The position numbers and the translations under genes are program-made. This document shows positions 7,872 through 23,379 of a stretch of DNA of 43,971 nucleotides, one piece after another. Below the pieces are notes generated by a model. That model saw nothing but the letters and a program-made list of their open reading frames with translations, did not search any database and had not been told where the DNA came from. Source of the DNA: Brasilonema sp. UFV-L1 (GTDB lineage Bacteria > Cyanobacteriota > Cyanobacteriia > Cyanobacteriales > Nostocaceae); contig NZ_QMEA01000309.1 of assembly GCF_012912105.1 (NCBI RefSeq), positions 1 to 43,971 of the forward strand, read 5' to 3'. How positions within the stretch are numbered: position 1 is the stretch's first letter; the number at the start of each line of letters is the position of its first letter.

Positions 7872-7875
7872 GACA

Positions 7876-7905
7876 TTGACATAGTGAATAATGTAAAAGT
7901 AGAAT
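7876..7905 (+). promoter_or_regulatory. sigma70-type promoter
   Basis: TTGACA at 7876-7881 and TAGAAT at 7900-7905, spacer 18. The leader motif at 7912 begins about where transcription should start, upstream of the nuclease-helicase pair. Confidence 0.65.
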
Positions 7906-7911
7906 ACAAAC

Positions 7912-7924
7912 AGCGACAAAATCA
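7912..7924 (+). promoter_or_regulatory. leader motif AGCGACAAAATCA, copy 4
   Basis: It lies 7 bases after the -10 box and 11 bases before the ATG at 7936, so it would form the very 5' end of the mRNA. Confidence 0.55.
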
Positions 7925-7935
7925 CACGGTAGAGC

Positions 7936-8796
7936 ATGAATGCACACGACTTTTTGAAAGATGCAGGATTTCCCCCGGAGTGGAAAGAGTATCACTTGCA
8001 AGACTACTTAGCTGATTGGTATAGAAATCAAGGGTATGATGTCAGAACTGAGGTTAGTTGTATTGGAGGTCGAGTAGACATAATCGCAGATAAAAATGGG
8101 CAAGGGTTAATTATTGAAGTTAAGAAGTGGTTAGGTAGAAATGAGATTTTACAAGCTTACGGGCAAGCAAAACTGTACCAAGAACATTTAACTTTGGACG
8201 GCAGACCTTTATATGAAGGAGGCAAGGCAAGAAAAATTGTTGTTGCTGGACTTTTGACGAAGCGATCGCCTGATGAGATTGATTCAGCATGGAGTCAAGC
8301 AGATAGAGTCACGCATTCTGGTGGGTGCGTTGTTTTCGTAGATCAGTGTCCAGATTATTATCCATCTAGACCGTTTAAGCATTACTGCGAGGAAGAGCCA
8401 ACATACACTACATCTAGACCTGGTTTTAGATTGAGTGACTATGTGAACTGGGGGCAAGAAAGCCGTAAGGTAGCTCAAGGAGTTTGGTCAGGATTTAAGG
8501 TTTTATGGTGGTTGTGTCGGTTTATTGGGCGTTGGTTCACCTCTAAAAAATACTCCAGAAACTATTACAATCACCCTTCGGGTTCGCCACACTCCCAAAC
8601 TCCTGCGGAGACGCTACGCGAACGTGACGGAAACCGCCAAGACGGGAGGTGGACTCACAAAGCAAGGAAACGCCCTAACTTTTTATTCATTTATCTTGTG
8701 ATCGCCGTCTTAGCCGTCTGCTTTGATATGGGACAAAGATTAGTAACACACTTTACCCAAAATCAACCTCAACCACAAACAGTTATCTATAAGTAA
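7936..8796 (+). CDS. PD-(D/E)XK nuclease with C-terminal membrane segment
   Basis: A 286-aa protein. Residues 20-85 carry a restriction-endonuclease-like core: GGRVDII with Asp48, IIEVKK with Glu61 and Lys63, and a downstream ILQAYGQAKLY (Q-x3-Y type) helix as in RecB/Mrr-like nucleases. The family cuts DNA using metal ions bound by the Asp and Glu. Residues about 208-238 are encoded by an in-frame palindromic repeat. Residues about 252-272 are a hydrophobic helix, so the enzyme may be membrane-associated. The gene overlaps the helicase by one base (TAATG), which argues for a joint nuclease-helicase function in phage recombination, replication or exclusion. It has a recognisable promoter but only a poor Shine-Dalgarno. 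Confidence 0.7.
   Translation: MNAHDFLKDAGFPPEWKEYHLQDYLADWYRNQGYDVRTEVSCIGGRVDIIADKNGQGLIIEVKKWLGRNEILQAYGQAKLYQEHLTLDGRPLYEGGKARKIVVAGLLTKRSPDEIDSAWSQADRVTHSGGCVVFVDQCPDYYPSRPFKHYCEEEPTYTTSRPGFRLSDYVNWGQESRKVAQGVWSGFKVLWWLCRFIGRWFTSKKYSRNYYNHPSGSPHSQTPAETLRERDGNRQDGRWTHKARKRPNFLFIYLVIAVLAVCFDMGQRLVTHFTQNQPQPQTVIYK
8572..8647 (+). repeat. cyanobacterial palindromic repeat inserted in frame
   Basis: A run with CACCCTTCGGG, GCTACGCGAACG and GGAAACCGCCAAGAC, typical of interspersed palindromic repeats of filamentous cyanobacteria. It is translated without a frameshift. A related copy lies at 37981-38059 in the hub gene. Confidence 0.65.
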
Positions 8797-10298
8797 TGCT
8801 ACCTACCTTAAGAGACTATCAAAACAAAGTTGTTTCTGAGACTTACGCACATATACGTCAAGGGAAAAGACGTGTTTTAATAGTTGCTCCTACAGGTGCA
8901 GGTAAAACCCACACAGCTGCAAAAATTGTCAGAGATGCGGTCAACGTAGACCATCAAGTAATGTTTGTCGTCCACAGAGACGCGCTCATCAATCAAACTG
9001 TTAAATCCTTTGCTAGGTGGGGTTTAAGTTGTGGTGTTGTGTCGGGCAACCACAAGGAAAATAGGTTTCCTCCTGTACAAATATGCTCCTTTCAGTCTTT
9101 GGGACGCGAGCGCGATTTGTCTTGGTTAAAACCTGGCTTGGTAGTCAGTGATGAATGTCATGTAACTAGTTATACTTCAATCATGTTACAGAGACTTCCT
9201 AAGCTCTCCGAGGGAAGAAATAGCAATGAACCTGTGTACATTGGCTTAACTGCTACTCCTTGGAGATTGAAGCGTGATGAGTGCTTAGGTGATATTTTCC
9301 CGGTAATGGTGAAAGCCCCATCTTACGGGCAACTTATCAGGATGGGTAATCTTGTGCAGCCTGTGTATTACGAGGTTCCGAACTCGTATGGCAAGGATAT
9401 GGCTGCTGATATCCATTACATCATTGCTCAATGGAAGAAGTGGGCGCAGAATAGTCCAACTTTTGCCTTTACTGAGTCAATCCCGTTTGCTAAAGCACTA
9501 GCCAAGGCATTTAATGATGAGGGTATAAATTCTGTTGCGATACATGAGGGGATTTCATCTAAAAAACGCGATCGCTACTTTCATGACTTTGAAGCAGAAA
9601 ATATTAAAGTCCTGACAACTTGTGTAGCGCTTGTGGAGGGCGTTGATATTCCCAAAGCACGAGTAGCAATTCTTGCTCGCAACAGTGACTCACCCTCATT
9701 TTATTTTCAAGCAGTAGGGCGAGTCATGCGCCCTTACACATATCCAGATGGTGACATCAAAACTGATTGTCTTATCCTTGATCAAATGGGTATTGTTTCC
9801 AAATTCGGATTGATTGAAGACTTAGAAATCACTGAAGCAGACTTATTTAATTCTTCCAATACAAATAAAGAAGAAACTGGGGAGGAGAGAAAGCCAGTCA
9901 AAAAATGCCCTTGTTGTGAGCAGATGGTTTCTGCTCAGCAGCGAAAATGTAGATGTGGCTACGAGTTTGAGCGGCTTGAGTTGAGCGATCGCTTCCTCCC
10001 TTCCGGAGATATGCAAATTCTCTGGAAAGATGAGGCTCAAAAAGTCCACTATGCTCAGTACCAGAAGATGTTAAGAGTAGCTTGTGCTAAAAACTTGCCT
10101 TTTAGATGGGCTGATGAAAGTTTCTTGCATACCTACGGCTACTTTGCTCCTTCCGACTGGAGAAGAAACGCTGTTATTCCTCCTGGCAACCCCAAGATGA
10201 GGAAAGCATTTGAAGAATACTTACAGGCGATCGCTGCTGCTGAATCTAGAGATCCTGCATGGATTTCAAGACAACTCTCTCTTGAATTAGGTATGTAA
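8796..10298 (+). CDS. superfamily 2 DECH-box helicase with zinc ribbon
   Basis: A 500-aa protein with SF2 helicase motifs: an RDYQ Q-motif-like start, Walker A APTGAGKT (31-38), DECH (119-122), TATP motif III (152-155) and motif VI QAVGRVMRP near 312. After the helicase core comes a C4 zinc ribbon (CPCC...CRCG, about 370-390) and a 100-aa tail. Such phage helicases unwind or remodel DNA and often act in replication or recombination. The ATG overlaps the nuclease stop codon by one base, so the pair is translationally coupled. A type III-like Res subunit is unlikely because no methylase partner is adjacent. The gene ends at a reverse-oriented dispersed palindrome. Confidence 0.9.
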   Translation: MLPTLRDYQNKVVSETYAHIRQGKRRVLIVAPTGAGKTHTAAKIVRDAVNVDHQVMFVVHRDALINQTVKSFARWGLSCGVVSGNHKENRFPPVQICSFQSLGRERDLSWLKPGLVVSDECHVTSYTSIMLQRLPKLSEGRNSNEPVYIGLTATPWRLKRDECLGDIFPVMVKAPSYGQLIRMGNLVQPVYYEVPNSYGKDMAADIHYIIAQWKKWAQNSPTFAFTESIPFAKALAKAFNDEGINSVAIHEGISSKKRDRYFHDFEAENIKVLTTCVALVEGVDIPKARVAILARNSDSPSFYFQAVGRVMRPYTYPDGDIKTDCLILDQMGIVSKFGLIEDLEITEADLFNSSNTNKEETGEERKPVKKCPCCEQMVSAQQRKCRCGYEFERLELSDRFLPSGDMQILWKDEAQKVHYAQYQKMLRVACAKNLPFRWADESFLHTYGYFAPSDWRRNAVIPPGNPKMRKAFEEYLQAIAAAESRDPAWISRQLSLELGM

Positions 10299-10323
10299 GA
10301 GTGTTTCAAATCAAGCAGTCTTG
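10296..10323 (-). repeat. dispersed interrupted palindrome, copy 4 (reverse)
   Basis: It begins at the helicase TAA stop: TAAGAGTGT ... GCAGTCTTG. Its right half-site runs into the TTGACA -35 box of the next promoter. Confidence 0.6.
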
Positions 10324-10349
10324 ACATCATTATCGAGAAAGTGTACTAT
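10321..10349 (+). promoter_or_regulatory. strong sigma70-type promoter
   Basis: TTGACA at 10321-10326, a 17-base spacer, and TACTAT at 10344-10349. It drives the ParB-methyltransferase gene; AAGGAG follows at 10364-10369. The overlap with the dispersed palindrome suggests that element could act as an operator. A related but weaker arrangement precedes the gene at 12325. Confidence 0.8.
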
Positions 10350-10379
10350 TAAAGCAATTAATAAGGAGCAAGCGATCAA

Positions 10380-12212
10380 ATGGCTACAGCGACTGAGGCG
10401 AAAACAGAAAAGTTAACGCCTGTTTGGAACAAAGTACAAGGCGGCTATATTTTATCAATAGACAAGGTGGATGGGAAATTTTTTCCATCTCTTAAGAAAG
10501 GAGAGGAGTTCGAGTCTTTTGGGCTGTTTAACAATGAGAGTGATGCAAAAGCGGCAATCTTAGAGGCATATCATAGCAAAGTTCAAGACTTAGAGCCAGG
10601 ACAGTATATTGAGGTGGATGTTGATTTACTGTATGTGCATCCTAAGAACAAAGCGATTTATGTGAATGACACTTTTGAGGATTTGATCCGCTCATTAGAC
10701 GTTGCAGATCCTTACATTGCGCCATTAGAAATTACATCGACAGGAAGAATTGTTGCTGGCAACCGTCGTAAAAAGACGATTGACATTATTAACCAGAGGT
10801 ATCAAGCTGCTAACCTGTATAGAAAAATTCCTAGAGTTCCTGTGGTGGTTAAGGAATACTTAACAGAGGAAGAAGAGCTAAGTCAGCTTATTTTGAATAA
10901 TCAGTCTAGAAAGAAAACGCATTTTGTGAGGGCGCAGGAAGCTCTGTTGTTGCGGGATATTCAAGAAAGCAAAGCGCGTAAATTAAAAGCGATCGCACGT
11001 CGTGGAATTCAGACTGAAGAAGACGCGAAACTTGTTGCTGAGCGCGAAGAAATGAGAAAGCGCATCGGTAAGGATGGAGCCGTTAGATCCAGTGATGTTA
11101 TTGCTCAATTGACTGGTTTTGGTTCAGGTACAGCGGTAGATAACAGTATTAGTGGTTCTGAATATGTCAACTTCTTGCAGAAAGAAGGGCATGAGGAACT
11201 AGCTCAAGTTGCCAAAGAACTCATGGATAAATATGAGTCTTCTAGCTTTGATGCGGAATTGACAAAAGTTCCACTTCATCTACTTGGGGAGATAGGGCAA
11301 GAATTACTACAAAGCAGCAAAAAGCGGGTAAACCTTGGCAAGATTGTTGAACAAAAGCAAGCAGAAAAGATTAGACAAGAGGCAGAGAAGAAGGCAGATG
11401 CAAGTGATACGGTAGAGGCGAGAATAGAGCTTTCAATTTCTTTGAAGGACAAACCAGAAGACAACCGTTTTACACCTAAGATTTTGGTTGAAAGTGGCAT
11501 CAAGGTATTAGGTGAGATTGAGCTTGATCCTTGCGCTCCTTATGTAGATGAGGTGAAACCTATTCCTGCCAAGAACTTTTACACTATCAAAGATGATGCT
11601 TTAACTAAGGATTGGCACGGCAAAATATTTACCAATTTCCCTTTTAGCAAGCAGCCTAGATTCTTTCAAAAGCTGGATGAACAAATCAGCGCTGCTCATA
11701 CACTAGAAGGTATTGTTGTCTGTGAAGGTGGCGCTATTTTCGCCCAGAAAAGCCAAGAAGTTATGGCAAAGCACAAAATGGTTATGTGTCTCTACAGAGG
11801 GCGTGTAGAATTTGAAAAAGGTGCGTTCTATAAAGCGATTAAAGAAGCGAATAAGACGCAAGATGATCTGGATGCAAACAACAATCGCTCAACAACTGCG
11901 ATTATTTACTATGGCGCTCGCACTTCTGCTTTCATTGATGAGTTTTCTCAGTATGGAGATATTCGTCTAAGTTTTGAATCTGTTCTAGAAATTCAGTCTC
12001 AACAGCTAGGTTTGCCCACTTGGGAAAAAGGAAAGGGGGGTAGCTGGTATACCACTTTTAGAAACAATAAGCTTGAAGTCAAAAAAGAAGGTGACTTCTG
12101 GCATGTTCTTATAGACGGTGAGGTTGCAGAAAACACTGCTCATAGCGATAGGTTTGGCAAGGCATTGGCGCTCGCTTATTGTATTGACCCTAGCGCTAGA
12201 ACGCCGTTCTAG
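10380..12212 (+). CDS. ParB-like nuclease/N6-adenine DNA methyltransferase fusion
   Basis: A 610-aa protein. Residues 1-70 form a small unidentified domain. Residues 75-185 resemble the ParB/Spo0J N-terminal domain (TGRIVAGNRRKKTI, 121-134, matches the GxIxAGxRR signature). Residues 190-350 are helical and lysine-rich. Residues about 360-525 match phage Dam-like N6-adenine methyltransferases: NRFTP start, IELDPCAP, the catalytic NFPFS (about 418; NPPY/DPPY type) and YRGRVEF. The C-terminal 70 residues are an extra domain. The enzyme would methylate adenine, for example to protect phage DNA, with the ParB-like part giving binding or regulation. It has its own promoter and AAGGAG site. The catalytic tetrapeptide is NFPF, a tolerated variant, so activity is likely but unproven. 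Confidence 0.85.
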   Translation: MATATEAKTEKLTPVWNKVQGGYILSIDKVDGKFFPSLKKGEEFESFGLFNNESDAKAAILEAYHSKVQDLEPGQYIEVDVDLLYVHPKNKAIYVNDTFEDLIRSLDVADPYIAPLEITSTGRIVAGNRRKKTIDIINQRYQAANLYRKIPRVPVVVKEYLTEEEELSQLILNNQSRKKTHFVRAQEALLLRDIQESKARKLKAIARRGIQTEEDAKLVAEREEMRKRIGKDGAVRSSDVIAQLTGFGSGTAVDNSISGSEYVNFLQKEGHEELAQVAKELMDKYESSSFDAELTKVPLHLLGEIGQELLQSSKKRVNLGKIVEQKQAEKIRQEAEKKADASDTVEARIELSISLKDKPEDNRFTPKILVESGIKVLGEIELDPCAPYVDEVKPIPAKNFYTIKDDALTKDWHGKIFTNFPFSKQPRFFQKLDEQISAAHTLEGIVVCEGGAIFAQKSQEVMAKHKMVMCLYRGRVEFEKGAFYKAIKEANKTQDDLDANNNRSTTAIIYYGARTSAFIDEFSQYGDIRLSFESVLEIQSQQLGLPTWEKGKGGSWYTTFRNNKLEVKKEGDFWHVLIDGEVAENTAHSDRFGKALALAYCIDPSARTPF

Positions 12213-12324: not shown

Positions 12325-13191
12325 ATGGTAACACGTAAAAAAGCTGCACCAGCTTCAACTGTGCCAGCAGAGAAAAAGACAACTAAGAGGACAAGGACTA
12401 CGGCAGCATCTAAGACCAAAGCTACTGAGTCTAAATTAGAACAAGCGATTAAGAGGTTTGCTGAAGTTGGAATAGATTTAAAGAAAGGAGAGGATGGTAA
12501 ATTCGTTGCTACAGTAGATAATGCTGAAGATAATACTTCTTGGAATGAAGTTTTTAAGACTCCTACTGAGGCGTTAAGGTGGTTAGAAGGATACAAGGGA
12601 TTTGTCGAGGCAGAGAAACTTTTTGCTGAACATGGGTTTGAGCTTTATAGGAAAGAGAAGTATCTAGCAATTAGCTTTGTTGACAAAGAGCAAATTTTTA
12701 AAACTCACTTAGAGGCAATTGATTGGCTTAACACAGAATGGCTACAACAAGTTGAAGAGAGTAATGATGTGTTGAGTGATGAGGATTATGATGAGGTGCT
12801 GAGGGCAGAGGGTATTGCCCTTACACAAAATGACTCCACACAAAATGACTCTACGGTAGCGCAGAAGGAACCACAAGAGATTCAGGAAGAAGTAGAAGAA
12901 GAGATTGTTGTTACTCCTATGATTCCTTTGGAAGAAGAAGACATGCAAGCGGTGTCTTCTGAAGAGATAAGTAAAGCGCGATCGCTCTTTTTGGAAGTAA
13001 CCATAGAGGAAGCCATGAAAGCGGATGTCAAACCTGTAGACACTAGTTTAGGTGAGGGATCTTATACATGGGAGGAAATAAGAGAACTGCTAGACAACCA
13101 AGCAACTAGTGTACATCAGTTGGCGATCGCTGCGGCACGTAAAGGATATGGTTTACATTTCGAGAATGGGAAATACACTTTAAAAGTTTAG
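12325..13191 (+). CDS. hypothetical protein with basic N-terminus and acidic middle
   Basis: A 288-aa protein preceded by AAGGAG. The first 35 residues are disordered and rich in Lys, Thr and Ala, as in proteins that touch nucleic acid. Residues 40-150 hold two weakly similar units of the type GxKFVAxV...EALRWLE/EAIDWLN. A duplicated TQNDS pair (tandem DNA repeat near 12827-12852) precedes an acidic stretch (about 175-215). The last 50 residues form a small domain ending in LHFENGKYTLKV. A similar small module may occur at the N-terminus of the ParB-methyltransferase. No known family. It lies between DNA-modification and packaging genes. Confidence 0.65.
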   Translation: MVTRKKAAPASTVPAEKKTTKRTRTTAASKTKATESKLEQAIKRFAEVGIDLKKGEDGKFVATVDNAEDNTSWNEVFKTPTEALRWLEGYKGFVEAEKLFAEHGFELYRKEKYLAISFVDKEQIFKTHLEAIDWLNTEWLQQVEESNDVLSDEDYDEVLRAEGIALTQNDSTQNDSTVAQKEPQEIQEEVEEEIVVTPMIPLEEEDMQAVSSEEISKARSLFLEVTIEEAMKADVKPVDTSLGEGSYTWEEIRELLDNQATSVHQLAIAAARKGYGLHFENGKYTLKV

Positions 13192-13211
13192 CCTTTGTTT
13201 ACATTATTATG

Positions 13212-13239
13212 AGACTGCTGCAACAACAGCAGTCTTTTT
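13212..13239 (+). terminator. Rho-independent terminator, also a dispersed-palindrome copy
   Basis: GACTGCTG (13213-13220) pairs with CAGCAGTC (13227-13234), loop CAACAA, then five Ts. It shows that some copies of the dispersed AAGACTGC palindrome act as terminators. The terminase start codon is only 4 bases further on. Confidence 0.8.
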
Positions 13240-13243
13240 ATGT

Positions 13244-13903
13244 ATGATGAATCTGGAGTCTGAAAAAGGTGAAGACGTGCCAAAAGGAGATAGACTCACA
13301 CCGAAGCAAGAAAAGTTTTGTCAAGAGTATTTCTTGTTAGGAAATGCCCAGAAAGCTTACATGAGAGCGGGTTATAGGACTCAAGGGAATGCAGCGTATA
13401 CTGAGGGTTATCGACTCCTCAAAAACCCCCTAATAAAAGCCAGAATCAAGGAACTGCAAGAGTCTGAGGCACTTCGCTATGCTGGAAGTCGTCTAAGATT
13501 GATGAGGGAGTTAGAGAGGATTGCTTATGCACAAATAACAGATGTTTGTGAGTTTAAGGGGACGAGTGTTGTTACTAAAAACTCTGAGGATTTGGATGAG
13601 GATGTGAGAGCGGCGATCGCGGAAGTGGTAGCAACAAAAACAGGTGTAGCTGTGAAGATGCATTCTAAGACGGATGCATTAGGTAAGCTAATGAAGATTT
13701 TGGGTTTGAGTGGGGATTTGAATCTGGCGATCGCTATTCTCAGGCGTTATGGTTTGAACTTGGTAATAGAAGATGGTAGATGGCGACTTCTTGACGAGCA
13801 GGCTCAACCAGAGCAACTGGAAGAATCAGCAGAAGATACTGAAGACGACGAACGAGCCGATGAGGAAGACTCTGACGAAGAAGCAGAGGAAGCAGAAGAA
13901 TAA
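13244..13903 (+). CDS. terS: terminase small subunit
   Basis: A 219-aa protein. Residues 14-60 show the Terminase_2 signature: LTPKQEKFCQEYF, then NAQKAYMRAGY, an N-terminal DNA-binding helix-turn-helix, followed by LLKNPLIKARIKEL and the central oligomerisation helices. In this family the small subunit recognises the phage packaging site and presents DNA to the large subunit. The C-terminal 50 residues are strongly acidic (DDERADEEDSDEEAEE), which may be disordered or contact the large subunit. The start follows a terminator by 4 bases and lacks a clear Shine-Dalgarno; GTG at 13277 is an alternative. The large subunit gene overlaps its 3' end by 44 bases. Confidence 0.9.
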   Translation: MMNLESEKGEDVPKGDRLTPKQEKFCQEYFLLGNAQKAYMRAGYRTQGNAAYTEGYRLLKNPLIKARIKELQESEALRYAGSRLRLMRELERIAYAQITDVCEFKGTSVVTKNSEDLDEDVRAAIAEVVATKTGVAVKMHSKTDALGKLMKILGLSGDLNLAIAILRRYGLNLVIEDGRWRLLDEQAQPEQLEESAEDTEDDERADEEDSDEEAEEAEE

Positions 13904-14657
13904 GTTTTACGATTTCTTTCTTGGTGCTTGGGAAGTATTACATCCATCAGAAGAATTGTTACGCAATTGGCACATTGAGTTTTTGTGTGAGGTTTTAGAA
14001 GGGCTAGCTGTTGGGAAGGTAGAGAAGAGAAACTTATTAATTAATATTCAGCCGCGATCGCTCAAAAGTGAGATAGTTTCAGTTTGTTTCCCGTGTTGGA
14101 GGTGGTTGCATAATCCAGAGGGGAAATGGTTATGCCTGAGTTATGCCTCAAGTTTGGCAAACTCTCACAACCAAATGAGACGAGATTTGATGCGATCGCC
14201 TTTCTACCGTGGCTTGTTTCCAGAACTGGAATTGAAAGATGACAAAAATAGAATATCTGAATTTGCCAATAACTACCGTGGTGAGATTATATCTCGTGGT
14301 TTCGATGGCTCAGTGACTGGCGTCGGTGCAAACGCCACGGGAGGTATAATTTGCCTTCCTTACCACCAAGTTATTAATACTGACTCTGGTCTATTGCCGA
14401 TAGGAGAAATTGTAGAGAAAAAGTTACCTATAAAAGTTGCAACTTTCAATCATGAAACTGAGTCTATAGAGTATGGGGATATAGAGCGATACGAAGAGAA
14501 TCCCGGCAGAGAATTGATTGAAATCGACTTAGGCGATCGCATCATTGAATGTACAGAGGATCACCCAGTATGGGTAAAAGACAAAGGCTATATCCCTGCT
14601 AGAGACATAGCCATCAATGATGTAGTACTAATTTATGACGAAACAGAGAACCTGTAA
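13860..14657 (+). CDS. terL: terminase large subunit, N-terminal half fused to N-intein
   Basis: A 265-aa product from the likely start ATG 13860, which overlaps the small subunit gene. Residues 1-164 are the N-terminal part of a packaging ATPase: KFYDFF entry, NWHIE motif, and Walker A-like PRSLKS within LLINIQPRSLKSEIVS. The sequence stops making terminase sense after GANATGGII and continues with Cys1 of an intein N-half (101 aa, listed separately), ending at TAA 14655-14657. In uninterrupted homologues GGII would be followed by the Walker B DDP, which is found instead at the start of the C-half gene after its intein. The half-protein should be inactive until joined by trans-splicing. Splicing itself is inference; the reading frames are seen directly. 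Confidence 0.9.
   Translation: MRKTLTKKQRKQKNKFYDFFLGAWEVLHPSEELLRNWHIEFLCEVLEGLAVGKVEKRNLLINIQPRSLKSEIVSVCFPCWRWLHNPEGKWLCLSYASSLANSHNQMRRDLMRSPFYRGLFPELELKDDKNRISEFANNYRGEIISRGFDGSVTGVGANATGGIICLPYHQVINTDSGLLPIGEIVEKKLPIKVATFNHETESIEYGDIERYEENPGRELIEIDLGDRIIECTEDHPVWVKDKGYIPARDIAINDVVLIYDETENL
14352..14654 (+). other. split intein, N-terminal half (101 aa)
   Basis: Starts with Cys1 (block A: CLPYHQVINTDSG) and contains block B with the T-x-x-H motif at residues 68-71 (CTEDHPVW), ending in the block N4-like DIAINDVVLIYDE. The length is close to known split N-inteins (about 100 aa). All expected N-terminal catalytic residues are present. The reading frame ends just after the splicing domain, so there is no contiguous endonuclease domain. 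Confidence 0.9.
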
Positions 14658-15654
14658 GTTCTGCAAATCAGAATTTTTTGTAAGCAAGCCATCAGAAAAG
14701 CAAACATTTTGTAGTAGAGAATGCTTTAACAATAATAAACGAGGTGGTCTTAGACCTAATCCGGTTCCGTGCTTAAATTGCGGTGATTTGATTACTAATC
14801 AAAAGAACTTAAATAGAGGGGTGAAATACTGTGGTCACGCTTGCTATTGGGAGCATGACAAAAAAAGTAGTTACTTCACTTGTGAGCAGTGTGGCAAGCA
14901 ATATTACAGAGCACCCGCACATCAAGCAAGGGGAGGCTTCAAGCATCATTTTTGCTCTAAATCATGTTTTGGACTTTTTGAGAGAGGCGATCGCAATGCA
15001 CAATACATCAATGGCAAGTACCGTAGATACAACAGAAGATGCAATAAGTGTCAAGGGAGTATACCGGGGGATGGGAAGCATGAAAGAAGGATATGCGATC
15101 GCTGTCGTCAGCAAAAGAAAGACCAGGAAGAATCAAGACGAGAGCAAAGACGACAAGAAAGGGAACTCCGTAAGCTGCAACAAGAGCAAGGATTACCAAA
15201 TAGATGTAAAACCCGATTTACAATTAATTGTTTTGAGTGTACAAAGCCTTTTGTAGTGACGATGGAGCGATTGAATAGACGCTATTGCTCCATAAAATGT
15301 AAAGATGTTGCACACAGCAGAAGAATGAGAGGTAAAAATAACGGTAGGTATGTACACGGTGATTGCAGAGGCAAATACTCTTATGATTTCAATCGAAGAG
15401 TTAAGTCTGTAATCCGTCACCGCGATCGCTATACCTGCCTCTTGTGTGGAATGACCGAACGAGAACACGGGTTAAAGTTACACGTTCATCATGTGGACTA
15501 CGACAAAACCAACTCTTCTGTTTATAATCTCATTACCCTTTGTAAGTACTGCCACGGTAAGATGCATGGTAGCATTGAACAAAGGGAAACATGGAAGAAA
15601 GAACTGTTAAGGCTATTAGGCGCAAGCATACGCCGCTCAAGACTTACAACATAG
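14635..15654 (+). CDS. free-standing zinc-finger HNH homing endonuclease
   Basis: A 339-aa protein in a different frame (+1) from both terminase halves. Residues 1-125 hold several CxxC...CxxxC zinc-binding units (CKFCKSEFF, CSRECF, CLNCGD, CGHACY, CEQCGK, CSKSCF), and two more pairs follow before residue 220. A basic Arg/Gln-rich helix (about 155-185) links to the C-terminal HNH nuclease: CLLCGM, HVHHVDYDKTN, NLITLCKYCHG. HNH enzymes of this type nick or cut DNA and spread the element that carries them. The ATG overlaps the N-half gene by 23 bases, and the 3' end overlaps the C-half gene by 64 bases. The target should be an intein-less terminase gene; this is inferred from position. Confidence 0.85.
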   Translation: MTKQRTCKFCKSEFFVSKPSEKQTFCSRECFNNNKRGGLRPNPVPCLNCGDLITNQKNLNRGVKYCGHACYWEHDKKSSYFTCEQCGKQYYRAPAHQARGGFKHHFCSKSCFGLFERGDRNAQYINGKYRRYNRRCNKCQGSIPGDGKHERRICDRCRQQKKDQEESRREQRRQERELRKLQQEQGLPNRCKTRFTINCFECTKPFVVTMERLNRRYCSIKCKDVAHSRRMRGKNNGRYVHGDCRGKYSYDFNRRVKSVIRHRDRYTCLLCGMTEREHGLKLHVHHVDYDKTNSSVYNLITLCKYCHGKMHGSIEQRETWKKELLRLLGASIRRSRLTT

Positions 15655-15701
15655 CAACAGCTAATCATAATTATTTTGCAGATGGGGTTCTCGTTCATAA
15701 T
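15591..15701 (+). other. split intein, C-terminal half (37 aa)
   Basis: Contains block F (TYNIATANHNYFADG) and block G (VLVHN followed by Cys+1). The terminal His-Asn and the Cys nucleophile are all present. The length is nearly the same as that of well-known split C-inteins (about 36 aa). Confidence 0.9.
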
Positions 15702-16679
15702 TGCGATGACCCCAACAACGTAGTAAAGGCTGAAAGCGATCGCATTCGAGAAGAAGAGCTAAGGAAATTCAAAGATTACTCGATTGGACGAAAGTCTGAT
15801 CCTAAGAAAACTTCTGTTGTGGTCATACAGCAGCGTACTCATATATCAGACATTAGTGGTTACATCTTGAGCGACCAGGCGGACAAGTACAAATACATCA
15901 AGATACCGACAAGGGCAAAAGAACCAGAAGAGTGGCGATCGCCTATCACAGATAAAATTATCGCCACTCGTCAACCTGGGGAATTACTGCATCCTGAGAG
16001 ATTTGGTGAAGAAGAGGACGCAGACGCCCTTAGAACGCTTGGAGCGTATATGTACGCTTCAAGACACGCTCAAGAGCCTTACCCTGCTTCTGGAGGCATT
16101 TTCAGCCCGGATTGGTGGCGATATTACGACGAGCTACCTAAGCGTTTTATAGCTGCGATAACGGTAGATTGTTCCTTTGGTTCTGAATCCGAGACAGCTA
16201 GTTATGTTGTCATCCAGTTGTGGTTGATTTCTCGTCCTTACTTTTACGTACATGATCAACTGCGTCAAAGGCTAACATTCCCCAAGACTAAGGCAGCTTT
16301 GTCCAAATTGCACAAACAATGGCAGGAAGACTTAGGGGTTGCGATCGGTCCTACTCTGGTTGAAGGTAAAGCCAACGGCAAAGCAATAATTCAGTCTTTG
16401 CAAACTAGTATTCCCATGATTATAGAAATCAATCCCAAGGAATCCAAGAAAGCCAGAGCGCAGGCAGTAGCGCCTATGTATGAATCAGGAAACGTTTTGC
16501 TCCTCAGGAGTGCTTCCTGGCTCCAAGAGTACAAGATTGAGTTTGAAGCTTTCCCTAATTATTCTTCTGACGATTGTGTAGACGCGGGATCGCAAATCAT
16601 CCAGTATTACCTTAATCGTTGGCGCTTGCAAGACTTGGATTCTGAGGAAGGGATGACAGGGCGAATCAAGGTTTACTAA
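15591..16679 (+). CDS. terL: C-intein fused to terminase large subunit, C-terminal half
   Basis: A 362-aa product. Residues 1-37 are the C-terminal intein half. The C-extein begins with Cys+1 and continues DDPNNVVKAESD, so joining to the N-half restores GGIICDDP, the Walker B region. Further terminase features are QQRTH, a nuclease-type VDCSFG with a candidate metal-binding Asp, LVEGKANGKAIIQ and the final DDCVDAGSQII. The spliced protein would have 164 + 325 = 489 aa, a normal length for large terminases. The start ATG 15591 is inside the endonuclease gene and has AAAGGGA just upstream, so it has its own translation start. The stop codon TAA is the first base triplet of the left inverted repeat. 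Confidence 0.9.
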   Translation: MEERTVKAIRRKHTPLKTYNIATANHNYFADGVLVHNCDDPNNVVKAESDRIREEELRKFKDYSIGRKSDPKKTSVVVIQQRTHISDISGYILSDQADKYKYIKIPTRAKEPEEWRSPITDKIIATRQPGELLHPERFGEEEDADALRTLGAYMYASRHAQEPYPASGGIFSPDWWRYYDELPKRFIAAITVDCSFGSESETASYVVIQLWLISRPYFYVHDQLRQRLTFPKTKAALSKLHKQWQEDLGVAIGPTLVEGKANGKAIIQSLQTSIPMIIEINPKESKKARAQAVAPMYESGNVLLLRSASWLQEYKIEFEAFPNYSSDDCVDAGSQIIQYYLNRWRLQDLDSEEGMTGRIKVY

Positions 16680-16714
16680 GACTGCTGCTACTTAAACAAA
16701 CTTTTTTAGAAAAA
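16677..16714 (+). repeat. left inverted repeat of the 7.9 kb portal segment
   Basis: 38 bases beginning TAAGACTGCTGC and ending ACTTTTTTAGAAAAA. It matches the reverse complement of 24524-24561 at 33 of 38 positions without gaps. The first half is also a copy of the dispersed palindrome family. Confidence 0.8.
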
Positions 16715-17158
16715 CTTTCGGTGAACCTTGACCGAAACAGTGACCAGTTACCAGGTAACAGAGAGACTTTTCACTGTTCACTGTTAGGGTACAAGCCCCC
16801 AAATTCATTTGTGGAAAGAAAAGAAAAGTTATTCCTTGCCAAAATCCACAGCGAGTTTATTCATGGGGATTAACTGGTAACTGATAACTGTTAAGCTTTT
16901 TTAAGTATCGTAATATTTTAGCTCATACCGTCTGTTTTTTGGCTTAATCGCCACAATTGTGACCCTCTTCAGTTCGACGAACTTGTTAGGGAACATTAAG
17001 TCGCACATTGCGTCAACTATAGATAAAATTATAGCCATTAGGCTACACAAACGGCTTTCATCCCTTGTCTAAAGCACGAAAAATGCAACTACGTTGCTGT
17101 CTTTCAAGGGTTTTCAGCCAGCCATTCTTATAAATCAGTGTTCAGGACTAATCTCTAT
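16715..17158. other. intergenic region with CAGTTAC-type short repeats
   Basis: No supported gene. It contains clustered short repeats (ACCAGTTACCAGGTAACAG near 16743, CACTGTTCACTGTTA near 16772, TAACTGGTAACTGATAACTG near 16871) like those scattered through heterocystous cyanobacterial chromosomes. This suggests host rather than phage DNA. Confidence 0.5.
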
Positions 17159-17716
17159 ATGCAACATAAATTACGCGGATTAATAGCTACCTTTGTCTTA
17201 ATCACAACAGTATCTATTCCTCGGATTGCCTTTGCTGGCGATCGTCAACCGCAAACAAGCCCACAATTATCTGATAAACCTTTTATTATAAAAAAGAATC
17301 GTCTAAATGACGAAGAACGGCAGAAGATAATAGAGAACATACAAGAATTAGAGCTTCAGTACTGTCCTGATGTGCAAATCCAAAGGCTTTCAGGCAAGGA
17401 TGACTTCTGTTCTGATGCGCCCCAACCGTCTTTAAAAGTTGCGGCGCCTCCTTTTGAGTCAAAAGGTAGCTCCATAAGCATGACAGAATTGGCTGTCCGC
17501 ATCATAAAACCGAATATCGACAACTTCATAGGATTCTTCTTCAAAACAATACCCAGCAATATAAATATCAAGTCTGCAGAGAAAGAACTTTCAATAATGA
17601 TCAAGTCTGCAGAGAAAGAACTTCCAATAATGCTCAAGTCTGCAGAGAAAGAACTTCCAATAATGATCAAGTCTGCAGAGAAAGGACTTTCAAAGGTCAG
17701 GGTTAGGGTCAGATAA
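17159..17716 (+). CDS. secreted hypothetical protein with C-terminal tandem repeats
   Basis: A 185-aa protein from ATG 17159; the frame extends to a GTG at 17138, but the signal peptide fits better from 17159. Residues 1-26 form a signal peptide (basic start, hydrophobic core, AFA then GD as likely cleavage site). The mature protein has two Cys residues that could pair. Its C-terminus is built from nearly four copies of an 11-residue helical unit (KSAEKELPIMI type), ending in an arginine-rich tail. No family recognised. It is followed by an AT-rich terminator and flanked by long gene-poor DNA, and is probably host-derived cargo in the inverted segment. Confidence 0.55.
   Translation: MQHKLRGLIATFVLITTVSIPRIAFAGDRQPQTSPQLSDKPFIIKKNRLNDEERQKIIENIQELELQYCPDVQIQRLSGKDDFCSDAPQPSLKVAAPPFESKGSSISMTELAVRIIKPNIDNFIGFFFKTIPSNINIKSAEKELSIMIKSAEKELPIMLKSAEKELPIMIKSAEKGLSKVRVRVR
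17568..17693 (+). repeat. 33-bp tandem repeat, 3.8 copies
   Basis: Units start at 17568, 17601, 17634 and 17667 with TCAAGTCTGCAGAGAAAG and differ at only one or two bases. They encode the 11-residue repeats of the secreted protein. The near identity indicates recent slippage expansion. Confidence 0.9.
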
Positions 17717-17743
17717 TTTTTAATTTTGTCAATTAAAAATTAT
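17713..17743 (+). terminator. AT-rich hairpin terminator
   Basis: ATAATTTTTAATT (17713-17725) is the exact reverse complement of 17731-17743, loop TTGTC, overlapping the stop codon of the secreted protein gene. Confidence 0.6.
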
Positions 17744-18255
17744 GCTGAAATTTTGGAAAAACCAGAGGTATTAATTTAACTTTTGTACTGATTTTTATTT
17801 TCTTTTTTGTTTAAGTCCCACTAGGCGTTTTTCTGACTCTGGCTACAGGCAGAGAATCTACGACAGCAATGGACTAAAACAAGATGTTACCTGCAATCAA
17901 GCCCGTCCATCTTTTGTTTTTGTTTTATCTTGTGCATCTGTTAACCATTCCTTAGTTGCTGAGGTACTGTATTTTCCTTTTTTCCCAATAGCTGTGCTAA
18001 AAACACCGAAACTGTTGTCAGCCCACGCTTGTTAGCTCATGACTATCCCAAAACTCCACATTGCTAGTACCACTGCTTGTGTCTTGGTCAGATGCAGCAT
18101 CTTTTCTATGATTATCCTTGTCTATTGTCTTAATTCTTCACTTTTTTCTATTGGCATTCTCCCTCTCACACCTAAAGTTGCATCTGCCTTGCGTATTTTT
18201 GCAGTCTGACTTCAGTTGTCTATTTTACTGGCTAAATCGCCCTTTTCTTAAATCC
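17744..18255. other. intergenic region, no firm gene
   Basis: No convincing coding region. A 56-codon frame from ATG 18040 has a hydrophobic start resembling a signal peptide, but it lacks a ribosome-binding site and similarity cannot be judged. GC content and style look chromosomal. Confidence 0.4.
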
Positions 18256-20124
18256 CTACCCTTGAAAGGGATGTTCTTCTCCCAGCACCTTTGCTGTTAT
18301 AGCCAGGGCTTTTTGATACAATGGTTCAGCTTCTGGATAGCGCCCTTGGGAGGTGTAGAGATCTGCTAAGTTCTTCAGGCTAGTGGCATAGTCGGGATGT
18401 TCTTCTCCCAGCACCTTTGCTGTTATAGCCAGGGCTTTTTGATACAATGGTTCAGCTTCTGGATAGCACTTTTGGAAGTAGTAAACCTTGCCTAAGTTGT
18501 TCAAGTAAGTGGCATAGTCGGGATGTTTTTCTCCTCGTATGTCTCGTATGTCTTCTGTTAGTTCCACGGCGTACTTATACAATGGTTCAGCTTCTTGATA
18601 GCGCCCTTGGGAGGTGTAGATATTTCCTAAGTTGTTCAGGCTAGTGGCATAGTCGAGGCTAGTAGCATAGTCGGGATGTTTTTCTCTCAGCACCCTTGCT
18701 CTTATCGCCAGGGCTTCCTTATACAAGGGTTCAGCTTTTTTATAGCACTTTTGGAAGTAGTAGATATTTCCTAAGTTGTTCAGGCTAGTGGCATAGTAGG
18801 GATGTTTTTTTTCAAAACTGCGTCTTACTACTGATACACATTGCTCACCCCAAGGTTGAGCAAGCTCATACAATCCCTGTCCAGAATAAAATCTACCCAA
18901 GCCAGTAAAAACCCAAATTAAATTTTCATCACTGACTGCATCAGTCAGATTTTGTGCCACCTCTGCTAAATGTGGAATAGCATCTTTGACGGATTCAATA
19001 TCACGACGGGTTGGCGAATAGGGAATTTCTTGAGCAATTGCGATAAAAGTTTCTGCAAAAGCGCGTTTCAATTCATCGGCTTGTTCTGATGCTGCTTGCT
19101 TGAGTTTCAAAAACTCCCGAATTAAGGGATGAATTTTGTAGTAATCATCTCTTCTATCTCCAGTTTTATTTTCCACCCATTGAATCAAATGGCGTTCGTA
19201 AAGTTGCTCAACAGCTGTTTCAACTTCACTTGCATCCCAATTCAGCCTCCCAGTTGCAGACTCTACCCGTTCCCAAGCAAAGATATCCGGTGCGAATAAA
19301 CTTAATAGCTCACCCACACCCTGTGTCGTAGAAGCGAGTTCCCGCCAACTTAGTTCAAATGCATCCAAAACTCCAAGCTGTGCTGTACTCAAGGTTTGTT
19401 GCAATTGTTGCTGATGGCGGTTTATCGCTTCATCTTGAAGTCGCTGCTGTTTCAGCCGCTCCAACATCTTTGCTAAAGTCCAATGGGGAGGTTTTTTAGC
19501 TAAATACCGCCCCACCAATTCCAAACCCAAAGGTAGATACCCCAGCCATTCACACAACAGTTTCGCTGTTTCCTCTTCCTTTTGCACTCGTCTTTCACCC
19601 ACTAGCCCCCTCAACAATTGCAAAGCTTCTTCTGGTGACAACACATTCAGAAATATCAGAGATTTCTCATCGGAGTTGAGTGTTAGCAACCGCGTTGTCA
19701 TCAACACATGGAAGCGGTTACCTTTTGGTCTAAGTTGTTGATAATTAGCCAAATCGGTGATACCATCGAACACTACCAACGCCAGTCCTTCTGATGGTTG
19801 CCACTGCTGCCAACACCAGTTTACCTGTTTGGTAAGACTCCACGGCTCTCCGAGGGAATTCTTTTGTGGGACTGCCAGATTCATGTGAAGTTGGGCAAAC
19901 TGCACTATTTCTGCTGCAAAATTCGACGTTCTGGCATCTAACCAGCAAATCCCACCAGGATAATCCGCTTCATATTGACGTGCATATTGCGTTGCGAGTT
20001 CAGTTTTGCCAACACCACCCATACCAGAAACAAAAATTGCGACTGCGTTTGGTTGCTGCAACTTTTCTCGCAGTAGGGAAAGTTCATTCTGTCTGCCAAC
20101 AAAGTTAGCAGAACCTTGAAACAC
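18256..20124 (-). CDS. NB-ARC (STAND) ATPase with TPR repeats, C-terminal part of an interrupted gene
   Basis: 622 aa from GTG 20124. FVGR entry, Walker A GMGGVGKT (34-41), Walker B LVVFD (116-120), sensor MTTR and GYLPLGLELVG (about 205-215) define an NB-ARC switch. Residues about 385-622 are kinesin-light-chain-type TPR units (ATSLNNLGNIY, then AEPLYQKALAI), the sensor part of such STAND proteins, many of which serve in defence or signalling. The frame is continuous with the upstream 147-aa gene except for one TGA at 20176-20178, with 17 codons between that stop and the GTG. The TPR array ends abruptly in GEEHPFQG, where a further repeat would begin, so the 3' end is probably truncated. It could be a decaying gene or be expressed from the internal GTG. 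Confidence 0.8.
   Translation of the reverse strand: MFQGSANFVGRQNELSLLREKLQQPNAVAIFVSGMGGVGKTELATQYARQYEADYPGGICWLDARTSNFAAEIVQFAQLHMNLAVPQKNSLGEPWSLTKQVNWCWQQWQPSEGLALVVFDGITDLANYQQLRPKGNRFHVLMTTRLLTLNSDEKSLIFLNVLSPEEALQLLRGLVGERRVQKEEETAKLLCEWLGYLPLGLELVGRYLAKKPPHWTLAKMLERLKQQRLQDEAINRHQQQLQQTLSTAQLGVLDAFELSWRELASTTQGVGELLSLFAPDIFAWERVESATGRLNWDASEVETAVEQLYERHLIQWVENKTGDRRDDYYKIHPLIREFLKLKQAASEQADELKRAFAETFIAIAQEIPYSPTRRDIESVKDAIPHLAEVAQNLTDAVSDENLIWVFTGLGRFYSGQGLYELAQPWGEQCVSVVRRSFEKKHPYYATSLNNLGNIYYFQKCYKKAEPLYKEALAIRARVLREKHPDYATSLDYATSLNNLGNIYTSQGRYQEAEPLYKYAVELTEDIRDIRGEKHPDYATYLNNLGKVYYFQKCYPEAEPLYQKALAITAKVLGEEHPDYATSLKNLADLYTSQGRYPEAEPLYQKALAITAKVLGEEHPFQG
18268..18790 (-). repeat. 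TPR-encoding tandem DNA repeats, period 126 bp
   Basis: The GGGATGTTCTTCTCCCAGCA unit at 18268 recurs at 18394 with nearly identical DNA for about 90 bases, then in more diverged copies further right. An 18-bp duplication (ATAGTCGAGGCTAGTAGC) near 18648-18672 adds an extra DYATSL. The pattern indicates recent unequal crossing-over or slippage. Confidence 0.75.
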
Positions 20125-20175
20125 AACATTATTTGGGGGATTTAACTTTGCCCGTTCCCGTTCGGGCGACTTTTC

Positions 20176-20619
20176 TCAAGTAATATTGAAAGTACTACCT
20201 CTTTGGTCAATAGTTTGCGTTTGAGCCGCATTAATAGCTTTTTCGATGTTTTGGATAAAAGTTGAAGGATATGATTTTTGAGATTGCTCCACAGCTTCTT
20301 TTATCTCCCTCAGAATTTCAGCCAAGTTTGACGGTGGATTAGTTTCGGCTGCTGTTGCCAATTCCTGTGCAGCTTGAGCCACTTCAGGATTAGCCTTAGC
20401 CGCAGATTCTACTTCCAGTACAGCTTTGCCATAATCGAGTGGTTGTTCTGGTGCTTTCTCAATAGCAACTACAGTATTGGGAGAGTGTTTTTTAAGGGTA
20501 ACTAAGAACTTACCAGCTTTATTCAATAAAATTTCTGTTCCCTTTTCGGTTGTTTTTTCTAAGACTTTAGTGGCAACTATAGTACCAACAGCGATCGCAC
20601 CAGCAGTCAATGGCTCCAT
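20176..20619 (-). CDS. N-terminal domain of the NB-ARC gene, ended by an in-frame stop
   Basis: A 147-aa protein starting MEPLTAGAIAVGTIVATKVL. It has a hydrophobic, alanine-rich N-terminal helix, then charged helices ending in QRGSTFNIT. This pattern is familiar as the N-terminal region preceding NB-ARC/TPR in filamentous cyanobacterial STAND proteins. The downstream NB-ARC frame is the same frame, separated only by TGA, so the two were probably one protein of about 786 aa. The stop may be a nonsense mutation, or the two parts may now be made separately, with the second started at GTG 20124. It lies 157 bases from the portal gene end. Confidence 0.65.
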   Translation of the reverse strand: MEPLTAGAIAVGTIVATKVLEKTTEKGTEILLNKAGKFLVTLKKHSPNTVVAIEKAPEQPLDYGKAVLEVESAAKANPEVAQAAQELATAAETNPPSNLAEILREIKEAVEQSQKSYPSTFIQNIEKAINAAQTQTIDQRGSTFNIT

Positions 20620-20776
20620 ATACTACCTCGTAAGCACGGTATCTTATTTATTAATATATGTTTCTGTCCTAAATTCCGCAACCTCCGCAATCAAAGTAAA
20701 AAACTTATAGTTTACCGTCGCTGGTTAGATAAAATTGATGTAAGCAAAATTGAGATTGTATCCCAAACCTTTAAAA

Positions 20777-22156
20777 TTAAGCATTATTACTGTTAGATTC
20801 AAGTCTAATTTTTTCTAATTCTGCTATTGGGGAATCGGTGTAAGCAAGAAGAGCGATCGCTGTTTCTTTACTCAACAATCCTGCTTGATAAGTTGATATG
20901 ATCTGTTGTCTTTCTTCTGGTAAGAGTTGACCAGGGTTAGCATTGACAATAAAATTTAGAACAAGTTTGCTATGCTCTGTATTGTCTTGTCCTTGGTAGT
21001 AGCGGTCTAACAGATAAGCACCAAAGAAAGCATTACTGTAAAAGTCCTGAAGTCGTTTAGAGTCTTTCAGGAGTGCGATAACAAAATCATTGCGTAATTC
21101 TTGACGCGATCGCCCAGATAAAGTAAGGTCACTTGCTAATAAATGAGATTGATTAGCCTGTGAGTAGATAGTTCCTAGACTAAAGGTAGCAGCATCAACA
21201 AATGTCTTAATCTCTATTGGTTGTTCTGTGTGAACGGTTGGTGAGGTATACCCTCTAGTCAAGCCTTGCTCATCTTTAATAGCAACTCCAGAGATAAAAT
21301 TAAGCATTCCTGGAGCGATGACAATTGCTTCTGGATCTTTAATAAATACCCGTTTACCTGTTCTTTCATCAGTCTGGAATTCTCCGGGTAATTTTGCATT
21401 TAGGAAGATACGAGAGACAAAACCGGAGATTTGGTTATTTCTGGGGATCAAGGTGGCAGCATGATTAATGGCATTCTGTGCTGTTTTCATGGAGGTCGTT
21501 ATAAAAGGTCGTCGCTTGCCTTCGGTAATTGTTAAGCGTCCTCCTAAATTAATAGAAAAAGTATAGTATGGGTTCTGTTCCCCTAATTCGTAATATTCAA
21601 AAACTGTTTGTCTTGTTTCGTTAAGGTATTGAGTTTCTATTAACTTTTTATCTTCTTCTACGTAATAGTATTCTATTTTTCGTGGGCGTCCAATCGCATC
21701 TCTTGTAACTACTTTGACGCTTTCTACAGGTGGACAATGCAAATAAACAGTACCATCTACTGTAGTTGCCCTCAGATAAGAAACACCACCGACAAGCAGA
21801 TTTAAAAGTGATTCATAGATTGGATCTGGGAAATCAAAATTTCCCACGGGTGTGCCTAAAGTTCTTGCTAAGTAATCAGCGATCGCGATATTAGCTGACT
21901 GTAACTCTGATTCATTTAAATTACTATTGCCCACATTAAAAGATGCAGTAGGATCTCGTCCTAAAAGTGCATCAGCGTGACGTGTAACCACCTCAGAGAT
22001 GACATTTATCTCTTGAAACATTCGATAAATGTCATCAGCAAGAGCTTGCCCTTCTTCTGTCTGGGTGTCTGGTTTTATCCCAATCCAGAAATCAAAAAGA
22101 TTGCCATTGTAATAATGCCAATTTTCCTCAATTAGGTGCAAATCTACAGTACTCAT
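20777..22156 (-). CDS. phage portal protein, inverted relative to the other head genes
   Basis: A 459-aa protein. An N-terminal helical region (ISEVVTRHADALLGRDP, about 52-68), a central mixed region with YLRATTVDG and HCPPVESVKVV, a long crown-like helix segment and an acidic C-terminus fit phage portal proteins, the dodecameric DNA channel that docks terminase and the head-tail connector. It is of normal length and shows no frameshift. In dsDNA phages the portal gene normally lies directly between the large terminase and scaffold or capsid genes on the same strand. Here the position is right but the strand is reversed, within a segment bounded by inverted repeats. A dispersed palindrome stands directly before its start codon. 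No clear Shine-Dalgarno is seen. Confidence 0.8.
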   Translation of the reverse strand: MSTVDLHLIEENWHYYNGNLFDFWIGIKPDTQTEEGQALADDIYRMFQEINVISEVVTRHADALLGRDPTASFNVGNSNLNESELQSANIAIADYLARTLGTPVGNFDFPDPIYESLLNLLVGGVSYLRATTVDGTVYLHCPPVESVKVVTRDAIGRPRKIEYYYVEEDKKLIETQYLNETRQTVFEYYELGEQNPYYTFSINLGGRLTITEGKRRPFITTSMKTAQNAINHAATLIPRNNQISGFVSRIFLNAKLPGEFQTDERTGKRVFIKDPEAIVIAPGMLNFISGVAIKDEQGLTRGYTSPTVHTEQPIEIKTFVDAATFSLGTIYSQANQSHLLASDLTLSGRSRQELRNDFVIALLKDSKRLQDFYSNAFFGAYLLDRYYQGQDNTEHSKLVLNFIVNANPGQLLPEERQQIISTYQAGLLSKETAIALLAYTDSPIAELEKIRLESNSNNA

Positions 22157-22182
22157 AAGAGTGCAGAGGGTACAACTGTCTT
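22157..22182 (-). repeat. dispersed interrupted palindrome, copy at the portal start
   Basis: Read on the minus strand: AAGACAGT, a 10-base spacer, GCACTCTT, ending directly at the portal ATG. This is the same arrangement as at the tape-measure gene start (31764-31790). Confidence 0.55.
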
Positions 22183-22368
22183 GAGGGTATCATGACTCAG
22201 CCGACCATTCTTGCCCCAGAGGTTTTTCTGTTAACGAACATTTACACAAGCGCTCGGCTTTTCGCTGTTCACGGATTTTCACTCACTATTTAATGAAGTT
22301 ATTGCGTTGAGGTATTGCACCGTAAGCTTGATAATTGAAACACCAGTACTATAAACTCAAGCTAATTC

Positions 22369-23331: not shown

Positions 23332-23379
23332 CGTTTATTTTCGTTCCAGAAGCAAGTGGATTTCGTTCGATTTTTGATA

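Follow-up and report, generated by a model that had tools for sequence, protein, structure and literature searches.

A split intein with an overlapping HNH gene in a cyanobacterial prophage terminase, and relatives with nuclease genes nested out of frame

We analyzed a stretch of 43,971 nucleotides, hereafter the window, from Brasilonema sp. UFV-L1 (contig NZ_QMEA01000309.1 of assembly GCF_012912105.1, a draft cyanobacterial genome of 8.3 Mb in 337 contigs). In its terminase locus (13860-16679), the gene for the large terminase subunit (TerL) lies in two pieces, which carry the N-terminal and C-terminal halves of an intein (IntN and IntC), and an open reading frame (ORF) for an HNH endonuclease overlaps both. 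The sequence makes it highly probable that these are three overlapping cistrons of a prophage, that TerL is assembled by trans-splicing and that a homing HNH endonuclease has its place in the Walker B motif of TerL. The arrangement itself is of a known kind, the so-called fractured genes. Less expected are its relatives in other phages, in which a nuclease gene is nested in another frame of an unbroken intein, and which suggest how split inteins may arise.

Anatomy of the interrupted terminase gene

The three ORFs (TerL N part, 13860-14657; HNH, 14635-15654; IntC and C-extein, 15591-16679) are all open and comprise the following features.

13860-14351, plus strand: TerL N-extein, 164 aa, with GGII at its end (PHROG_4758, 4.8e-29; PHROG_38, 9e-27; alignment to the intein-free loci L018 and L024)
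14352-14657, plus strand: IntN, 101 aa and a stop, with Cys1 (start CLPYHQ) and block-B TEDH (TIGR01445, above cut-off)
14635-14657, plus strand: overlap of the IntN end and the HNH start, 23 nt (putative translational coupling)
14635-15654, plus strand: HNH endonuclease gene, 339 aa, CxxC zinc knuckles, +1 frame relative to the intein (PF01844, 2.2e-4; PHROG_1271, 2.9e-25; alignment of relatives)
15591-15654, plus strand: dual-coding overlap of the HNH 3' end and the IntC 5' end, 64 nt
15591-15701, plus strand: IntC, 37 aa, own ATG preceded by AAAGGGA, VLVHN at its end (TIGR01443, above cut-off)
15702-16679, plus strand: TerL C-extein, 325 aa, Cys+1-DDPNN, RNase-H-like nuclease domain (Terminase_6C, 1.8e-13; PHROG_38, 5.8e-51)

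This anatomy agrees with a preliminary description made from the sequence alone, which had recognized an IntN of 101 residues with Cys1 and a T-x-x-H block B, an HNH gene in another frame, an IntC of 37 residues ending in His-Asn before Cys+1, and a terminase of 489 residues once the exteins are joined. The NCBIfam profiles score 29.4 bits for IntN (TIGR01445 intein_Nterm; cut-off 24.5) and 23.7 bits for IntC (TIGR01443 intein_Cterm; cut-off 15.6). The exteins of 164 and 325 residues do sum to 489, and the PHROG_38 terminase profile is covered at positions 259-404 by the N part and at 409-705 by the C part. In the middle ORF, the Pfam HNH family PF01844 scores 21.8 bits, just over its cut-off of 21.4, and the HNH motif and zinc-binding cysteines that characterize HNH homing endonucleases are present. 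The same description had called this endonuclease free-standing and placed it between the halves. It is indeed a separate ORF, but one that shares 23 nt with IntN and 64 nt with IntC.

IntN and IntC share a reading frame. Between them this frame holds 37 stops against 37.0 expected by chance, which makes this a real interruption of the intein and more than a frameshift. With its halves on separate ORFs and a separate endonuclease ORF amid them, the locus is a fractured gene with a naturally split intein; the 37 stops set it apart from the nested intein endonucleases described below, in which the intein frame is open.

The preliminary description had placed the insertion at Walker B, pending alignment with intein-free terminases, and such an alignment bears this out: the window reads GGII/CDDPNN where L018 has LIL/VDDPNN and L024 has YLL/FDDPNN. 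The joined exteins are 58% identical to L018 over 483 columns and 45% identical to L024 over 476 columns, and the interrupted site is known in the terminase family as the Walker B motif. The residues used in splicing are invariant in the alignments, C1, T68 and H71 in all ten IntN rows and H36, N37 and C38 in all 11 IntC rows. The window thus has each of the marks of an intein (Cys1, block-B TxxH, terminal His-Asn and a +1 nucleophile), and its IntN is 40-63% identical to the nine others. In the HNH alignment, the zinc cysteines, H285 and H286, N293/N298 and H307/H311 are kept in five of five rows. A structure search with the predicted model of the window HNH protein (mean pLDDT 71.6) gave weak HNH matches, none at E<=0.001 and the best to McrA at 4.4e-3. 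For L051, a relative with a nested nuclease, the intein was modeled from seven sequences: residues 1-104 and 341-381 are predicted with confidence, whereas 105-340 have pLDDT below 50. Foldseek matches this model of the relative, whose intein is a single chain where the window has its halves on two, to the DnaX, RecA and DnaB mini-inteins (1.6e-6 to 2e-5).

We propose that the Walker B motif of the prophage TerL is occupied by a mobile split-intein cassette. The cistrons TerL-N-IntN, HNH and IntC-TerL-C would be translated from what is probably one message. A search for a Shine-Dalgarno-like motif at the HNH start of the window found none, and translation of this gene is probably coupled to the IntN stop. 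IntC-TerL-C would be translated from its own ATG, using the Shine-Dalgarno-like AAAGGGA before it. IntN and IntC would then associate and splice the exteins into a TerL of 489 residues, in which the Walker B strand is whole again with its aspartates. Trans-splicing of the TerL halves is probable on this sequence, and one may fairly infer that packaging depends on protein splicing. The HNH endonuclease would cut intein-free terminase alleles at the same site, and repair would copy IntN-HNH-IntC as one block.

Recurrence in relatives and the alternative readings

Relatives of the C half occur in 12 of 192 genomes of the family, the window's own genome (G000) among them, and in 16 of 386 genomes of a phylum sample (E<=1e-40). 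Of the 18 places found in the latter, only the two of the window's own genome have a start within the intein. The IntN search matched 264 of 388 genomes of the order; among the matches listed, most are open frames of DnaE size. Among close relatives, the intein is present in a patchy manner. More precisely, in genomes of the same genus (G061, G092, G143), there are fractured inteins in G061:C15 (L017) and G143:C25 (L020, the Scytonema sp. RU_4_4 contig of L001, holding the first 6000 bases of L001), a contiguous mini-intein in G092:C351 (L019) and an intein-free TerL in G061:C3 (L018); another intein-free TerL is found in G058:C3 (L024), of the same family. The DNA of the intein-free L024 and the fractured L020 is 95.2% identical over 994 nt downstream of the site and 91.6% identical over 6143 nt upstream. 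In L020, the halves are both intact and 5.8 kb apart (6168-11968), separated by a 1247-aa protein with WD40-like repeats (recognized by eye) and a 343-aa ORF.

The window's own genome has an apparent second fractured TerL, with its N part at G000:C331:20164-20889 (L034) and its C part at G000:C36:13245-14333 (L021), which appear to belong together given their likeness to L020. Behind the N part come ORFs on both strands, and the C part is preceded by a 601-aa ORF and a WD40-repeat-like ORF. Between L020 and this second copy, dN/dS is 0.03 in the N-extein, 0.04 in IntN and 0.03 in the C-extein, from small counts (1, 1 and 5 nonsynonymous changes, respectively, and 6 synonymous ones in IntN), and IntC has no difference in 111 nt. 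Judging from these ratios, both separated halves are under purifying selection in the L020-type prophage, which is the strongest evidence here that widely separated halves stay functional. In three diverged viral copies (L038, L039, L040), IntN is 40-54% identical to that of the window, the N-extein 34-37% and the C-extein 25-26%; the intein half is closer than the exteins, as expected of a cassette moving between terminases.

Two other loci appear to have inteins at different positions. In L023 (8677-11256), the TerL of G160 has a contiguous intein whose place, by eye, is not Walker B but the loop of Walker A, and which seems to lack Cys1. L022 (8002-9348) has a probable C half, HN/CLLWDDP, which lies 3 residues upstream of the site used in the window and is overlapped by a short HNH ORF in a different frame; the 19 kb searched with the window queries gave no N half.

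The wider viral family was sampled from IMG/VR, where we kept 6 loci for IntC-C-extein, 80 of 88 for IntN and 80 of 408 for HNH. These loci, three phage records and six genus loci were scanned with four HMMs from alignments built here. Leaving out duplicates and loci without a near-complete IntN or the IntC end gave 60 intein rows, in which nested means that IntN and IntC are in one open frame and that the DNA also encodes the nuclease, in a different frame. There are 23 nested rows (two of them near copies, L088 of L080 and L136 of L135), 14 fractured with an HNH-type ORF (including the window, L017 and L020), 15 mini-inteins, 4 split inteins and 4 contiguous ones without an HNH match. Some nested rows (L092 and L105, by Pfam) have a DUF559 nuclease and not an HNH one, as the HNH HMM catches similar zinc fingers. 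The overlap of HNH and IntC is 64 nt in the window, L017, L020 and L036, and 67 nt in L038, L039 and L052; it spans 29-67 nt in 13 of the 14 fractured rows and 1 nt in L068, and is common to nested rows too. Two split inteins, L046 (426-1436) and L071 (4282-5178), have GIY-YIG-type nucleases between the TerL halves (PHROGs). The split TerL inteins of L058 and L096 have 112 and 17 nt between their HMM-matched halves, without a nuclease, and may be deletion products or sequence errors. In L113 (3065-4366), three successive splicing-domain-like modules share one open frame.

Some of these observations weigh against the account given above. The HNH gene is frameshifted in L017, and in L020 only its last 48 residues are recognizable, which means that not all relatives have active homing; the apparent second TerL copy of the window's genome weakens the claim that packaging depends on the window copy. 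The decay of HNH in L017 and L020, together with the opposite-strand weak portal match and integrase that separate TerL from the window's head genes, would also fit an element in which intein and terminase are dead remnants of a defective prophage. We find this unlikely, since Cys1, the block-B Thr and His, the terminal His-Asn and Cys+1 are kept, dN/dS is low in fractured relatives, and the three ORFs of the window are open.

Still less probable is programmed frameshifting, by which a +1 shift at the IntN/HNH overlap and a shift back at the HNH/IntC overlap would give one intein with an internal HNH domain. IntN and IntC do share a frame and HNH does overlap both, as this would have it. However, the ribosome would have to shift twice, HNH is offset from IntN by +2 and not +1 in L036, L040, L065, L068 and L131, and the halves of L020 are separated by 5.8 kb with other genes. 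Moreover, ATG stands at position 1 of IntC in 12 of the 14 fractured rows, and none of 37 rows has its HNH-type ORF in frame with the intein.

A sequencing or assembly error that broke an ordinary intein, which the preliminary description had named as an alternative, is hardly credible even in a draft of 337 contigs, because one or two errors do not yield a chance number of stops and because the same layout recurs in other assemblies, among them same-genus prophages, and in IMG/VR contigs. An RNA-level intron carrying the HNH gene is equally implausible: HNH genes are common in group I introns, but intein profiles match at both ends, and an Rfam search of 12800-17200 gave no intron at E<=0.1, hence no catalytic RNA core of group I or II, the sole match being a sub-threshold sRNA on the other strand.

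Nuclease genes nested in unbroken inteins and the order of change

For 35 loci with an IntN, an HNH-type ORF and an IntC, the stops in the intein frame were compared with those in 300 synonymous-codon shuffles of the nuclease ORF. The 21 nested loci have no such stop, a count that none of the shuffles reached in 18 of them (the others being L086, p 0.007; L130, p 0.05; and L080, p 0.077). The 14 fractured loci have about as many stops in the IntN frame as expected, with L039 the lowest (37 vs 42.6, p 0.037); L065 has fewer stops than expected only in the third frame (26 vs 34.9).

A census of loci not chosen by their nuclease, namely the 80 of 88 IMG/VR IntN loci, gave 66 distinct inteins with a recognizable C side: 32 contiguous with linkers of at least 250 nt, 19 mini-inteins and 15 split. 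An out-of-frame nuclease-like ORF lies within the unbroken intein in 27 of the 32, another reason why free-standing is only partly apt for the endonuclease of the window. The linker is open in +1 throughout in 25 (nearly throughout in L085 and L092), in +2 in two (L119, L121), and in neither frame in five (L055, L056, L064, L106, L111). When the intein frame was shuffled instead (500 times), the 25 had p 0-0.054, while L119 and L121 had 0.004 and 0.012. These open frames were assigned to nucleases by HMM matches, with Pfam DUF559 in L072, L081, L089, L092 and L105, and by eye alone in L095, L099, L100, L101, L102, L119 and L121. At a genome GC of 0.27-0.36, L072, L081 and L089 have no stop where 12.2, 10.7 and 11.8 are expected (0/1000 shuffles). 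The canonical layout coexists with the nested one, as L106 and L111 have a LAGLIDADG endonuclease in frame (Pfam).

Over 97 nested pairs, amino-acid identity is 0.385 in the HNH frame, a figure raised by keeping only pairs with at least 28% HNH-frame identity over 150 codons, and 0.205 and 0.195 in the other two frames, the latter being the intein frame. Conservation of the intein frame does not exceed that of the third frame, hence the loop is kept stop-free yet not conserved as a protein. Near-identical nested pairs have 0-2 nt differences, too few to test selection. As for the starts of the hidden HNH genes, no candidate ATG turned up within the scanned stretch in 7 of 22 nested rows, and the candidates of the other rows are mostly without a Shine-Dalgarno-like motif.

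The nested state also appears in named phages. The TerL of Gordonia phage Clown (919 aa) has an HNH ORF in +1 within an HMM-recognized intein, with no stop in the TerL frame against 3.3 expected (P 0.024). That of Synechococcus phage S-EIVl (846 aa) has an HNH ORF in +1 (PF01844, 2.4e-5) and no stop against 12.0 expected (0/1000), within an intein-like insert recognized by eye only, which failed the HMM filter and has the C end VLN without the usual His. In both phages the nested region is annotated as terminase only; hidden nuclease genes in phage terminases and helicases can thus escape annotation. The intein in the TerL of Escherichia phage BUCT618 is contiguous and has no HNH match.

Conversion between states is seen in the genus of the window. 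The flanks of the fractured L017 and the mini-intein L019 are 94.8-96.5% identical, and L019 keeps the first HNH codons (MPVTVNGAHCR vs MPVTINCAHCK), has TCA at the place of the IntN stop TGA of L017, and then continues into the IntC start. By these traces, L019 is a mini-intein made from a fractured intein by deletion of the nuclease body. When five other mini-inteins were compared each with a partner, the linker held nuclease remnants in L041 and L077, and none in L079, L050 and L083. In a tree of IntN and IntC (58 rows), fractured, nested and mini-inteins intergrade, and the starred branches force at least 7 changes for the nested state and at least 5 for the fractured one; the window is in a starred clade with L017, L019, L020 and L036.

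We propose that the fractured split inteins of phages are broken-down nested (overprinted) inteins, a reading that in our judgment is as likely as not. The ancestral state would be a homing endonuclease gene in the +1 frame of an unbroken intein; the frame of the intein itself would be kept free of stops and encode a disordered loop. Stops would then enter the intein frame, mostly in AT-rich phages, leaving two proteins that remain able to trans-splice, since IntC has its start within the 3' end of the nuclease gene. Deletion of the nuclease would re-fuse the halves into a mini-intein with the nuclease's first codons as linker. This direction is the most economical, since one stop suffices whereas 5 to 43 would have to be removed in the reverse (56 in L020, over 5.8 kb). 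GC is 0.31-0.43 in fractured rows and 0.28-0.66 in nested ones (Mann-Whitney p 1.2e-4, ignoring kinship), although three split inteins without an HNH match run contrary to this trend (L071, 0.69; L058, 0.58; L096, 0.53). Against an order from nested to fractured, the tree shows repeated changes of state but no direction, and the IntN-HNH offset varies among fractured copies. The +1/0 registration of IntN, HNH and IntC in the window was considered as evidence of a nested origin and dropped, as the sister copies L017 and L036 start HNH at +2.

Nine nested rows have their intein at the exact site of the window, with Cys+1 followed by Asp-Asp (L051, L059, L060, L063, L067, L103, L127, L128, L129). 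With nested, fractured and re-fused states in related phages, partly at one site, the steps can be tested with real alleles. This bears on the origin of naturally split inteins, and new split inteins with a canonical split are useful tools.

Surroundings of the locus and comparison with known systems

The terminase locus is set in a contractile-tailed prophage with small terminase, major head, sheath, tape measure, endolysin-like, baseplate J and integrase genes. The small terminase subunit (13244-13903, plus strand; Pfam Terminase_2, 4.9e-29; PHROG_51, 2.7e-31) overlaps the start of TerL. Between TerL and the head genes (17138-24369), genes with a weak portal match, for an integrase and for a TPR-like protein of 622 aa are on the minus strand, which is unusual within a packaging-head block. 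Positions 10380-12212, before the packaging genes, encode a 610-aa protein with a weak ParB-like N part and a Dam-type methyltransferase C part.

Fractured genes, in which split intein halves flank a separate endonuclease ORF in phage-like DNA, were reportedly described by Dassa et al. (2009, NAR 37:2560), with a Vsr-like endonuclease. The window has the same split halves and separate ORF, but its endonuclease is of the HNH type, overlaps both halves and lies in the TerL of a cyanobacterial prophage. The DnaE intein of cyanobacteria is naturally split as well, in a cellular replication gene, and is not known to have an endonuclease between its halves; the window's own genome has an IntN on contig C116, 35% identical to that of the window, which is probably that of DnaE given the size of its open frame and an NCBIfam match (NF007079).

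In mycobacteriophages, inteins occur in TerL more often than in any other gene (PMC5050341). To the preliminary description, a fractured gene in a cyanobacterial prophage terminase, with the active site itself split, looked new. This novelty is not supported as stated, since AceL-TerL, GOS-TerL and Cat-TerL are also naturally split in TerL, near the N end with an IntN of 25-37 aa (PMC11766414), where the window is split 101 + 37. Nor is an HNH gene between split halves new, as phage MIJ3 PolB has HNH orf154 between two genes with intein halves (PMC6892783). The host gene is another one, and the consulted parts of that paper have neither the overlap nor out-of-frame relatives. In the usual account, split inteins arose when an endonuclease invaded contiguous inteins and fragmented them (PMC11766414). 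In the literature searched, with partial full-text access, no paper ties out-of-frame nucleases to split inteins; a preprint on non-canonical intein architecture in actinobacteriophages (bioRxiv 10.1101/2025.01.02.630785) may, by its title, describe the nested state.

The nested state that we find in many phage contigs was stated for one phage group, as the brucellaphage TerL has an HNH gene out of frame inside its intein (PMC4422536); the consulted parts of that paper make no link to split inteins. Finally, the ShiLan domain is an out-of-frame HNH hidden in phage methylases, in which its authors find no intein (PMC11855218), and the Applejack methylase, compared alongside it, likewise has a hidden HNH (PMC12613952). 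As in the nested inteins, an HNH gene lies in another frame of a host gene that is kept stop-free, but in the methylases, with no intein found, the insert in the host frame is not spliced out.

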